Shown here: positions 4,175-6,436 of the stretch, piece after piece | Position numbering within the stretch: the stretch's first letter is position 1 | How the letters are laid out: the number at the start of each line of letters is the position of its first letter | The notes under the pieces: model-generated | Told to the model about the DNA's origin: nothing | Databases searched by the model: none | What the model saw: the letters and a program-made list of their open reading frames with translations, nothing else | Made by a program: the position numbers and the translations under genes | Source of the DNA: Salibacteraceae bacterium | Lineage (GTDB): Bacteria; Bacteroidota; Bacteroidia; Flavobacteriales_G; Salibacteraceae | Assembly (NCBI GenBank): GCA_023262195.1 | Contig: JALRDM010000178.1 | Location: 1-11,530 of the forward strand | Direction: 5' to 3' | DNA length: 11,530 bases

Positions 4175-5123
4175 ATACATCCTGCAAATCAATATTAAAA
4201 ACACACCCATCCACATAACCTCGATTGCCAAGCTTACTCGTAGGTCGTTTTTTACATTCTGCTTCTATCATTTGAGAGCCCTCTCCGGGCTGCCATGGGG
4301 CAAAACCAAGTTGGGGCGTAGTAGCAAACCAAAGTGAAATCACCTTCTTTTTTAATGCCGATGCGATGTGCATCATCCCGGTGTCGTGGGTTATAACACA
4401 TTCCGCTTGAGCTATAATACTCGCGCTTTGGCCAATCGAATAAGCACCACAAGCATTGTAAACGTTTTGGCCACACTGTTTGGCAATTTCGGCCCCTCTC
4501 TCTTGGTCTTCTTTGCCCCCGACCAATAACAATGGACGATCAATTTTCTGACAGAGTGCCACGATTTTATCCTTGGGTAAAATCTTGCCTTTCATTTTTC
4601 CTCCAATGGCATAAACCACATAACCAGACCGGAAAGCGGCTGGCAATGTCGAACCTGCGACCTTATCATTTTCAGCAAGGAAAAAATCCAACCCTTTGCC
4701 GTCATCCTCAATACCGAGTGCGGCAACCGCATCAAAACATCGGGTAACAAAATGCCCAATGGGTAGCATTTCTCGCTTTGTATTGACATAAATCCACTTG
4801 GCAAGATTTCGTTTATCCACCGTGAAATTTAGCGCCTTCACCAACCGCTTCACTTGGCCAGATCGAAGATTATTATGCAGGTCTACTGCGTAATCATAGC
4901 GCGTTGAAGCAAGTAAGTCCTTCTGTTCAAATACGCTCTTCTCGATGGTGATTACTCGGTTTAAGTTCGGGTTTGATTCCAATATAGCCGCGTAACCAGA
5001 TTTAGTGATATAATCGATCTCTACTTCACCCTCCAACTGCTGTTTAAGTGCCCTGATGATGGGCGTGGTGAGCACAATGTCCCCAATGGAACTAAATCGA
5101 ATTATGAGTATGCGTGTAAGCAT
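4155..5123 (-). CDS. Glycosyltransferase family 9 protein (heptosyltransferase-like)
   Basis: ATG 5123 gives 322 residues; a GTG 15 bases further upstream is possible but lies inside the repeat cluster 5125-5142 and is less likely. The N-terminus RILIIRFSSIGDIVLTTPIIRAL is the hallmark of family 9 (WaaC/WaaF/RfaF) GT-B transferases, with the Gly-Asp loop near residues 13-14. The C-terminal half holds the nucleotide-sugar signature VITHDTGMMHIASALKKKVISLW (from about residue 243) followed by LGFAPW, as is usual in Bacteroidota members. These enzymes transfer heptose or a related sugar from an ADP-sugar to lipid A-linked core at the inner face of the cytoplasmic membrane. The donor and acceptor cannot be read from the sequence. 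No other lipopolysaccharide gene is adjacent. The stop codon abuts the stop of the convergent ATL gene. Confidence 0.9.
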   Translation of the reverse strand: MLTRILIIRFSSIGDIVLTTPIIRALKQQLEGEVEIDYITKSGYAAILESNPNLNRVITIEKSVFEQKDLLASTRYDYAVDLHNNLRSGQVKRLVKALNFTVDKRNLAKWIYVNTKREMLPIGHFVTRCFDAVAALGIEDDGKGLDFFLAENDKVAGSTLPAAFRSGYVVYAIGGKMKGKILPKDKIVALCQKIDRPLLLVGGKEDQERGAEIAKQCGQNVYNACGAYSIGQSASIIAQAECVITHDTGMMHIASALKKKVISLWFATTPQLGFAPWQPGEGSQMIEAECKKRPTSKLGNRGYVDGCVFNIDLQDVFNALTH

Positions 5124-5124
5124 T

Positions 5125-5142
5125 GCCACGAATGGCACGAAT
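5125..5142. repeat. ATTCGTG repeat pair, inverted orientation
   Basis: Two copies of CACGAAT (reverse complement of ATTCGTG) start at 5127 and 5136, nine bases apart, inside GCCACGAATGGCACGAAT. Read on the other strand the arrangement is ATTCGTG, two bases, ATTCGTG, GC, which mirrors the end of the cluster at 5174-5207. The two clusters can pair as a long hairpin. Confidence 0.7.
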
Positions 5143-5173
5143 TTACGCCAATGGATTGTGCATTACCATAGGT

Positions 5174-5207
5174 CTTGACATTCGTGAAAATTAGTGTAAT
5201 TCGTGGC
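5174..5207. repeat. ATTCGTG repeat triplet, left of the GxxExxY gene
   Basis: CTTGAC is followed by ATTCGTG (5180), ATTAGTG (5190) and ATTCGTG (5199), with start-to-start spacings of 10 and 9 bases. The same leader and spacing recur right of the GxxExxY gene at 5604-5638, so the gene is bracketed by direct repeats of about 34 bases. Confidence 0.75.
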
Positions 5208-5222
5208 CTTATCTGGTAAAGT

Positions 5223-5600
5223 ATGTCAGGATTATTATTCAACCAGGAAGTTTATGACATAATCGGTGCGTGCATGGATGTTCATAATGAGCTTGGGCAT
5301 GGCTTCTTAGAAGTGGTTTATGGTGATGCGCTAATGATAGAATTTGAAAAAAGAGGGATACCGTTCAACCGAGAACAGAAATTCGAAATTGGTTACAAAG
5401 GCCAAGTATTAGCACATCAATACTATACCGACTTTGTGGTATTCGACAAAATCATTCTAGAGTTGAAGGCTGCGTCATATATCGTTGATGAACACATTGC
5501 CCAAACTCTTAATTATGTGAAGGCTTCCAATCTTCAGCTCGGACTAATCGTCAATTTCGGCCGTGAAAAAATGGAGTATAAAAGGCTAATCTATTCTTAA
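5223..5600 (+). CDS. GxxExxY family protein (PD-(D/E)XK nuclease-like)
   Basis: This encodes 125 residues from ATG 5223 to TAA 5598-5600, the usual length of the family. The naming motif is present as GFLEVVY (Gly27, Glu30, Tyr33). It is followed by the acid-rich core YYTDFVVFDKIILELKA with Asp70 and Glu80-Leu-Lys82, and by HIAQTLNYVKAS near residues 91-102. The Glu30/Asp70/Glu80-x-Lys82 layout matches a PD-(D/E)XK nuclease fold, the basis on which the family (PDDEXK_3) is grouped; its biochemical role is unknown. The gene stands alone between unrelated housekeeping genes and is enclosed by ATTCGTG repeat clusters on both sides, so gene and repeats look like one inserted unit. The family call is firm; nuclease activity and mobility are inferences. 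Confidence 0.9.
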   Translation: MSGLLFNQEVYDIIGACMDVHNELGHGFLEVVYGDALMIEFEKRGIPFNREQKFEIGYKGQVLAHQYYTDFVVFDKIILELKAASYIVDEHIAQTLNYVKASNLQLGLIVNFGREKMEYKRLIYS

Positions 5601-5603
5601 AGA

Positions 5604-5638
5604 CTTGACTATTCGCGTGCATTCGTGACATTCGCGGA
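5604..5638. repeat. ATTCGTG repeat triplet, right of the GxxExxY gene
   Basis: CTTGAC and one extra T precede ATTCGCG (5611), ATTCGTG (5621) and ATTCGCG (5630). Spacings are 10 and 9 bases, as on the left side at 5180, 5190 and 5199. The cluster fills most of the gap between the GxxExxY stop and the tatD start, so that gap shows no clear promoter for the operon that follows. Confidence 0.75.
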
Positions 5639-5647
5639 ACACTCTTT

Positions 5648-6436
5648 ATGTTAATCGATTCACATACCCATATTTATCACGAAAACTTCGAGGAAGATTT
5701 TGATGAAATGATTGCGCGCGCGCAAAGCGGAGGTATAGGTTATTTCTTGATGCCTGCCATTGATTCAGAATACCATGAAGCCATGCATGGTGCAGCAGAG
5801 CGGCTTGAGCAAGCCATACCCATGATGGGCGTACATCCGTGTTCAATAAAATCAAATTTTCAAGAAGAACTCGATATCGCGAAAGGATACCTTTTCGAGA
5901 ATCCAGAAAAATATTGTGCCGTAGGGGAAATCGGAATTGACCTTTACTGGGATAAGACCACGCTTGATATCCAAATTGAAGCTTTCGAAACGCAAATTGA
6001 ATGGGCCAAACAACTGGGCAAACCTATTGTAATTCATGTGCGGGATGCCTTTAACGAAACCTTGAAAGTCATCGATCGACTAAACGATGACAACCTCACC
6101 GGTGTGTTTCATTGCTTTACCGGGACCAAAGAACAAGCGGAGCATATCATCAACTATGGTGGGTTTAAGTTGGGTATTGGAGGTGTGGTCACTTTTAAGA
6201 ATGGTAAAATCGATCAATTCATTAGCGAGATTGGATTGGACCACCTCATTCTGGAAACGGACGCACCATATCTGGCTCCCAAACCGCATCGGGGAAAAAG
6301 AAATGAGCCCGCTTACGTGGCTCTAGTCGCAGAAAAATTAGCATCTTGCTATGGTGTTTCAGTGCACGAAATCATTGAAACCACAACTGAAAACTGCAGA
6401 AACCTATTTTACCTTGAATTCCCATCCTATGCGTAG
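5648..6436 (+). CDS. tatD: TatD family metal-dependent hydrolase (DNase)
   Basis: This encodes 262 residues, the normal family length. All metal-binding positions of the TIM-barrel amidohydrolase fold are visible: His6-x-His8 (DSHTHIYH), Glu94 in VGEIGID, His130 in VIHVRDA, His155 in FHCFTG and Asp205 in LETDAPYLAP. TatD proteins are divalent-metal 3'-5' exonucleases linked to DNA repair and turnover of damaged DNA in the cytoplasm; despite the name they do not take part in Tat transport. It is the first gene of an operon and its 3' end overlaps the porin gene by eight bases. The intact active site suggests a working enzyme. The paralog (TatD, YcfH or YjjV type) cannot be decided here. Confidence 0.93.
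   Translation: MLIDSHTHIYHENFEEDFDEMIARAQSGGIGYFLMPAIDSEYHEAMHGAAERLEQAIPMMGVHPCSIKSNFQEELDIAKGYLFENPEKYCAVGEIGIDLYWDKTTLDIQIEAFETQIEWAKQLGKPIVIHVRDAFNETLKVIDRLNDDNLTGVFHCFTGTKEQAEHIINYGGFKLGIGGVVTFKNGKIDQFISEIGLDHLILETDAPYLAPKPHRGKRNEPAYVALVAEKLASCYGVSVHEIIETTTENCRNLFYLEFPSYA

Follow-up and report, generated by a model that had tools for sequence, protein, structure and literature searches.

Organization of the GxxExxY locus

The window, that is, the whole stretch of 11,530 nucleotides of DNA that was analysed, contains a short GxxExxY gene between a family 9 glycosyltransferase (GT9) gene and tatD, accompanied by three arrays of heptamers related to ATTCGTG. The features of the locus are the following.

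5127..5152, minus strand: left inverted array of three units (5127-5133, 5136-5142, 5146-5152), read on the minus strand as ATTGGCG-TAA-ATTCGTG-CC-ATTCGTG; mirrored partner of the right array
5180..5205, plus strand: left direct array, ATTCGTG-AAA-ATTAGTG-TA-ATTCGTG, which forms a palindrome with 5127-5152
5223..5600, plus strand: GxxExxY gene, 125 amino acids, PF13366/TIGR04256, predicted compact PD-(D/E)XK nuclease fold (profile scores, structure model)
5611..5636, plus strand: right direct array, ATTCGCG-TGC-ATTCGTG-AC-ATTCGCG, its last base 11 bases short of the tatD open reading frame
5125..5638, plus strand: proposed unit, comprising arrays and gene with two outer bases on each side (gene absent from nine congeners; paralogue boundaries and outer-base covariation elsewhere)

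The palindrome lies upstream of the gene, with 27 bases separating its two arrays, and the outer bases of the unit are GC and GA. Exact ATTCGTG is found at 5127 and 5136 on the minus strand and at 5180, 5199 and 5621 on the plus strand, with a sixth, unrelated copy at 1478. The heptamer clusters described in an earlier note on this DNA are real, but the units at 5190 (ATTAGTG), 5611 and 5630 (both ATTCGCG) are one-letter variants that the note had listed as ATTCGTG, and a third inverted unit, CGCCAAT at 5146-5152, had been missed. With this unit, all three clusters become triples with spacers of 3 and 2 bases (7-3-7-2-7).

It is this phased triple that lies beyond chance, the count of single heptamers being less striking. 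With up to 3 mismatches allowed, the window contains the triple pattern three times and 200 dinucleotide shuffles never produced it, whereas the six copies of the single exact heptamer were reached in 4 of 200 shuffles. In the organism's own 2.1 Mb genome (79% complete) the triple pattern has three matches, all at this locus, and none when it is read backwards.

The sequence CTTGAC stands before both plus-strand clusters, at slightly different distances, and had been taken for a shared leader. Since it precedes none of 144 other ATTCGTG arrays and is absent from two syntenic orthologues, it is not part of the repeat and is attributed to chance. Direct repeats of about 34 bases, the bounds originally proposed, were likewise rejected as the boundary of the unit, which is formed instead by the mirrored arrays, of CACGAAT type upstream and ATTCGTG type downstream. 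The left inverted cluster overlaps the GT9 open reading frame only if GTG 5138 is the start; ATG 5123 is the likelier start, because homologues mostly match from about residues 1-8 on, and all arrays would then be intergenic.

A predicted compact nuclease

The gene product scores 144 bits against TIGR04256 (cut-off 35) and 134 bits against PF13366 (cut-off 22), families whose names, GxxExxY and PDDEXK_3, state no role. Residues G27, E30 and Y33 of the G-x-x-E-x-x-Y motif are invariant among 93 sequences, as are the catalytic D70, E80 and K82 (D, E-x-K). The structure model (pLDDT 94) has as its neighbours PD-(D/E)XK folds of the Cas4/RecB-like kind (SSO0001, PDB code 4ic1), and a search by sequence returned no relative of solved structure at E up to 1. 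According to this model the protein is a compact Cas4/RecB-like PD-(D/E)XK fold with its active-site residues intact, and we predict that it is a nuclease. It differs from the Cas4/RecB-like nucleases in comprising only 125 residues with one cysteine. The Fe-S cluster of Cas4 needs four cysteines, a set that a protein with one cysteine does not have, and no CRISPR genes were noticed among the open reading frames of the window.

PF13366 is the sole family represented in the unit, with no known transposase or integrase there, and the single GxxExxY match in the own genome (79% complete) is that of the window. Synonymous sites are saturated and pN is 0.12-0.17, yet the heptamers are retained. A defence system was set aside, as the PADLOC search gave no match at E up to 1, and so was a phage origin: the only PHROGs matches are weak (E 0.023 and 0.12), and tblastn with the window protein (E 1e-5) matched 2 of 50,697 phage records, both from one virus. 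The same search found 8 of 72,556 plasmid records. The literature searched, which included few subscription papers and no preprints, yielded no link between GxxExxY genes and repeats or mirrored phased arrays; one paper describes a GxxExxY gene adjoining a reverse transcriptase, and the accessible portion of its text does not mention repeats (PMC8934634).

Mirrored, phased arrays flank many GxxExxY genes

A side-by-side reading of 31 GxxExxY loci revealed the same design in most of them, inverted heptamers upstream and direct ones downstream, while the heptamers themselves differ (CTCTGTG, CTCTGCG, CTTTGCG, ATCTGTG, ATTCGTG and others; the register of one listing of arrays is unfixed, and heptamers there may be shifted). 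ATTCGTG, initially regarded as the motif, is only one among many such types. Among 144 loci, an array score of at least 17 was reached upstream in 64 of 143 flanks and downstream in 55 of 143; the corresponding figures are 5 of 141 and 6 of 124 for stretches lying 400-600 bp out, and 2 of 143 for shuffled sequence. Exact 7-mers recur near these genes far more often than at a distance from them (314 v 25 at lag 9, 175 v 11 at lag 10 and 122 v 7 at lag 19), and a phasing of about 9.5 bases, close to the ten bases noted for the window, is general among GxxExxY loci.

Mirror symmetry was scored at 168 of the 173 loci, those with less than 150 bases of flank being left out; the 173 include one locus twice (L060 and L208 share the same best match). 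The median mirrored score of a locus's own upstream and downstream flanks is 37, compared to 17 for flanks of mismatched loci and 19 for own flanks in direct sense, and 61% of the 168 loci exceed the 99th percentile of the mismatched scores, against 19% in direct sense. An exact mirrored heptamer is found across the gene for 75% of 73 arrays, but for 8% when other loci are used and 19% when unmirrored. The TatD control (26 loci) gave mirrored scores of 18 against 16, with array scores of at least 17 at 4 upstream and 0 downstream flanks. At the threshold, a phased array is present on one or both sides in 81 of the 168 GxxExxY loci and on neither in 87. The suggestions that gene and repeats form one unit, and that similar repeats stand beside such genes in other bacteria, are thus borne out.

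Heptamer type and protein clade

Across loci, the similarity of the repeats correlates weakly with the identity of the proteins (Mantel r 0.22; maximum 0.13 over 2000 permutations). On a tree of 168 proteins, from which those shorter than 85 residues were left out of the 173, the ATTCGTG label requires 14 changes against 27.2 when shuffled, with 0 of 500 shuffles as low; the tree has few columns and many open forks, and its well-supported branches force only 4 changes. Loci with CTTCGTG, CTTATAT and ATCTGCG group on the tree too. ATTCGTG-like triples (up to 3 mismatches) flank 29 of the 173 loci, five of which better fit another heptamer, whereas 40 permuted heptamers flank a mean of 0.18 loci and at most 2.

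The sequences thus suggest that the heptamer varies between loci and tends to track the protein clade. The host does not set its type, because paralogues in one genome (G103) can carry different heptamers, CTTCGTG at one locus and ATTCGCG at the other. As the arrays are linked to the gene, the match with clade indicates co-inheritance as a unit and not by itself recognition; linkage alone could produce it.

Dispersed arrays without the gene

Named genomes contain at least 119 stretches with an exact triple, which come from Bacteroidota, Verrucomicrobiota, Acidobacteriota, Chloroflexota, Planctomycetota, Cloacimonadota, Spirochaetota, Calditrichota and other phyla. The earlier note would have taken repeats scattered without enrichment near GxxExxY genes as a refutation, and on this point the outcome is mixed. 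In the own genome (79% complete) all arrays lie at the gene and no gene-less copies were found outside the locus, but elsewhere only 2 of the 119 stretches have such a gene within 500 bp. This is a lower bound: of 80 stretches listed, 14 end less than 500 bases from the triple, so that a gene farther on can be missed. Counted by genome, a GxxExxY gene with an ATTCGTG-like flank (up to 3 mismatches) is present in 21 of 32 genomes chosen for the triple (18 of 32 if loci better fitting another heptamer are excluded), against 4 of 35 others (Fisher 4e-6, kinship uncorrected). A strict count, from which G112 and G114 were removed as chosen via the gene's own flank and in which G102, G105 and G113 were scored negative as better fitting another heptamer, gives 16 of 30 against 4 of 35 (3e-4).

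The 32 genomes derive from 40 chosen for an exact triple, 33 of which have a GxxExxY match and 7 none; one weak match was unfetched, and about 10 of the 32 were only partly fetched. No ATTCGTG-like flank was seen among the fetched GxxExxY loci of 11 of the 32, and ATTCGTG-flanked GxxExxY genes were found neither in G087 (25 arrays; 5 of 5 matches) nor in G098 (13 arrays; 11 of 11 matches). These two genomes, the 11 of 32 and the 7 of 40 show that arrays lacking the gene can occur in genomes where no cognate gene resides. Among 100 relatives, GxxExxY is present in 12 of 12 genomes with ATTCGTG triples against 52 of 88 of the rest, in 12 of 13 with CTCTGTG triples against 52 of 87, and in 14 of 16 with ATCTGTG triples against 50 of 84 (p 0.003, 0.018 and 0.027, kinship uncorrected; three of the 12 ATTCGTG genomes have single places with 3 mismatches, perhaps by chance). 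Distance to the gene was counted for 62 of 96 ATCTGTG and 33 of 86 CTCTGTG places, only in genomes already known for such cases, and is therefore given no weight.

The spacing of 3 and 2 bases is kept in 238 of 273 dispersed arrays. Where two arrays lie less than 150 bp apart (n = 110), CACGAAT followed by ATTCGTG, which is also the order around GxxExxY genes, accounts for 77 pairs, the reverse order for 7 and the same direction for 26. Two of nine gaps of 150-2500 bp between such arrays hold a GxxExxY gene (L063, L073), and in the other seven no family was recognised by eye. In one Prevotellaceae stretch (L060, 890-1842), tandem copies of the whole ATTCGTG palindrome with a 163-base period stand beside a GxxExxY match; the match, at 1047-1352, lies between palindromes and not in a loop.

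Dispersed palindromes of this kind might be REP- or MITE-like elements of the usual sort that some other enzyme mobilises, for example a Y1 (RAYT-type) transposase, with GxxExxY as a passenger between them. Y1_Tnp (PF01797) has matches in 38 of 46 genomes tested, among them G087 and G098, which have arrays and no ATTCGTG-flanked GxxExxY gene, and inverted flanks are common at the Y1 loci themselves (median own-mirrored score 25.5). Yet none of 20 Y1 loci fetched from six such genomes has a 9/10 array scoring 17 within 200 bp or an ATTCGTG triple, arrays occur without a Y1 match in G000, G003 and G012 of the window's genus and in G112, G114 and G131 (although drafts may miss genes), and the ATTCGTG type clusters on the GxxExxY tree. 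A Y1 transposase is therefore disfavoured as the driver, and we regard this explanation as rather unlikely. One Spirochaetia genome (G128, L087) has 46 Y1 transposase matches together with ATTCGTG palindromes and no GxxExxY match.

The GT9-tatD site and signs of movement

The GT9-tatD order is conserved in 12 of 13 members of the window's genus, namely those with a tatD match (G008 has none). Gene and arrays occupy the site in three genomes (G000, G003, G012), and the gene is absent from it in nine (G001, G002, G004, G005, G006, G007, G009, G010, G011), so that the sites without the gene called for in the earlier note do exist. Five of the nine (G002, G006, G007, G009, G011) have an exact CACGAAT remnant at the GT9 side, extended in G007 and G009 by a second unit in phase (CGCGAAT-TT-CACGAAT), and G010 has two near-units in phase. 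As G006 and G011, and likewise G007 and G009, look alike and may be sister pairs, we count about three independent remnants. They suggest that the unit was once at these sites and was probably lost repeatedly, leaving scars; a decayed gene-less palindrome is the alternative reading. The heptamer letters of the downstream array are kept at 21 of 21 positions in G003 and G012 and at 19 of 21 in G000. In this lineage the unit gives the impression of being old and quiet: there is a single copy, and three congeners share its site. In G004 (L164) the GT9-tatD gap is occupied by another insert, a few hundred bases long and lacking GxxExxY. The orthologous gene-less sites compared are too divergent for target-site duplications or exact insertion points to be resolved.

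Elsewhere, comparison of sequences suggests that such units have moved. Paralogues at unrelated loci in three genomes lose their similarity at about the mirrored arrays: the pairs L216/L218 (81.5% over 530 bp) and L359/L360 (74% over 548 bp) are alike only between about these limits, and the pair L202/L287 (77% over 422 bp) has a less sharp right end. One Flavobacterium intergenic site holds an ATTCGTG palindrome, an ATCTGTG palindrome, both nested, or neither, depending on the species, and additional dispersed matches to a single 66-base palindrome were found in many of 29 Flavobacterium genomes searched. Different heptamer types are nested in each other's loops in Flavobacterium, both ways round (L099 site B and its orthologues L324, L329, L335, L336 and L337; also L036, L046, L050 and L051). 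In five Flavobacterium loci (L326, L329, L332, L335, L338) a sequence resembling actcgagcgatagcgaacagacgaagtaa, possibly another tiny inserted element, breaks one palindrome arm between heptamers.

The arrays could instead be operators to which the protein binds in repressing the gene that encodes it, along with neighbours such as tatD, the unit being immobile and the dispersed copies a regulon or decayed relics. They adjoin the points where the gene and tatD start, their phasing resembles that of operator sites, and three congeners have retained them together with the gene, the gene-less congeners having remnants at most. This reading sits poorly, however, with a downstream array and mirror symmetry round the gene that recur widely, with paralogous copies that end at about the arrays, and with Flavobacterium intergenic sites that hold different or nested palindrome types; we consider it quite improbable.

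Covariation between the arms

In 66 palindromes, the variable fourth base does not covary between arms in the inner (0.55 v 0.58) or the middle heptamer (0.67 v 0.66), nor is there covariation at the inner spacer's first base (0.26 v 0.29). Covariation is seen for the outer spacer (0.52 v 0.32 and 0.83 v 0.64) and for the two bases outside the last heptamer (0.94 v 0.60 and 0.83 v 0.44); in the outermost heptamer the variable base covaries weakly (0.83 v 0.78, p 0.03). The 29 Flavobacterium pairs, taken alone, show covariation at the first outer base (0.86 v 0.65), in the outer spacer (0.62 v 0.40) and at the variable base of the outermost heptamer (0.86 v 0.73, p 0.004). Their second outer base does not clearly covary (0.79 v 0.75), and the outer dinucleotide matches in 0.72 v 0.56. 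Covariation between the arms thus increases towards the outer end.

These data bear on the possibility that the structure acts as a folded single strand, an RNA or single-stranded DNA hairpin like the 23S rRNA intervening sequences or REPs, and that the protein acts on the fold. The layout of a gene in a hairpin recalls that of the rRNA intervening sequences, and covariation at the outer spacer, the outer two bases and, weakly, the outermost heptamer base would be expected of such a fold. Since the inner arms do not covary, however, a hairpin kept by pairing along its whole length is rejected as the sole explanation; the second outer base is not clearly covarying within Flavobacterium, and Rfam gave no match in 5000-5760 at E up to 1, which also argues against a known RNA. 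The pattern better fits recognition of double-stranded heptamers with a paired or target-derived outer end than a full-length paired stem, although a folded intermediate would be compatible with it. We give the folded-strand explanation little probability.

A candidate class of minimal mobile units

On balance, and with modest confidence, we think it probable that the unit in the window belongs to a class of minimal mobile units that is widespread and mostly chromosomal, REPtron-like but with an unrelated nuclease. Sequence comparison provides its basis in the anatomy of the arrays and their mirror symmetry, the partial match of heptamer and clade, dispersed gene-less copies, paralogues bounded by arrays, gene-less sites and the conserved active site. 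In such a unit, a small PD-(D/E)XK nuclease gene would be enclosed by mirrored arrays that form the unit's ends, each with about three heptamers phased at 9-10 bases. A gene-less unit would be a palindrome in which the same two arrays enclose a short loop, and a gene-bearing unit such a palindrome with the gene in or beside its loop, as in the window, where the palindrome is upstream and a single array downstream. Nuclease clades would tend to have their own heptamer, and gene-less palindromes of that type would be non-autonomous copies. Binding by the protein, cutting, and copying by repair are steps that we infer. Several nuclease subunits may bind along one face of the double helix, at the phased heptamers, and draw the mirrored arms together; the nuclease would then cut at or near the outer ends, and repair of the cut could copy the unit into a new site or into another palindrome.

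The closest parallel is the REPtron (RAYT/TnpA-REP), in which, according to the portions of the reports available, an enzyme gene is flanked by cognate palindromes, gene-less palindromes occur in intergenic DNA, and enzyme and repeat types co-vary (PMC8266576, PMC3116915). The rarity of close relatives of the window's protein in plasmid (8 of 72,556) and phage (2 of 50,697) records is a further likeness. The enzyme of the unit is, however, a predicted PD-(D/E)XK nuclease (PF13366) and not an HUH Y1 transposase, and Y1_Tnp (PF01797) has no match in the own genome (79% complete). The arms also differ, being phased heptamer arrays whose inner parts lack hairpin-like covariation, and there is no GTAG or CGTC tag, the outer bases of the 66 palindromes being mainly GC, TC, GA, GT and TT. 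Dispersed cognate palindromes, absent from the own genome outside the locus, are present in many other genomes. MITE and TIR transposons and the TIRtrons of RAYTs share with the unit inverted terminal sequences round a gene and gene-less copies, as far as the available part of the source describes them (PMC3733652), but the terminal repeats of the unit are short phased arrays and no known transposase or integrase accompanies them. Unlike the 23S rRNA intervening sequence, the unit sits between GT9 and tatD and not in an rRNA gene.

Should this interpretation hold, it would give a concrete role to a large family named only by a motif, an origin to short phased repeats of many phyla, and a second enzyme class to the REPtron idea of an enzyme gene with cognate dispersed palindromes. 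Paired nucleases and recognition heptamers would make specificity directly testable, and a mobile unit that encodes only a nuclease would, at about 500 bases, be very small. There is a fair chance that the system merits a class of its own.

A broader reading, which we offer tentatively as possible but rather doubtful, is that of selfish DNA crossing phyla, in which small PD-(D/E)XK nucleases with their own phased-heptamer codes use cutting and repair to place copies of themselves and of gene-less palindromes in intergenic sites and in one another's loops, with no transposase or integrase; the CTCTGTG, ATCTGTG, CTTTGCG and ATTCGTG repeats would be the non-autonomous copies, and four-helix-bundle genes (TIGR02436) a second, convergent class with period-7 arrays. 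The latter genes, at 30 loci in 30 of 100 genomes, likewise have mirrored flanks, with a median own score of 33.5 against 16 for mismatched loci. They encode an unrelated protein, and their heptamers are contiguous with period 7 (158 v 4 at lag 7; 162 v 0 at lag 14), 9/10 arrays being found in only 1 and 0 of 30 flanks. That these genes, too, lie between mirrored arrays suggests a more general design, with a gene enclosed by array arms. Across the TIGR02436 loci (L294-L323), the heptamers differ from one locus to another.
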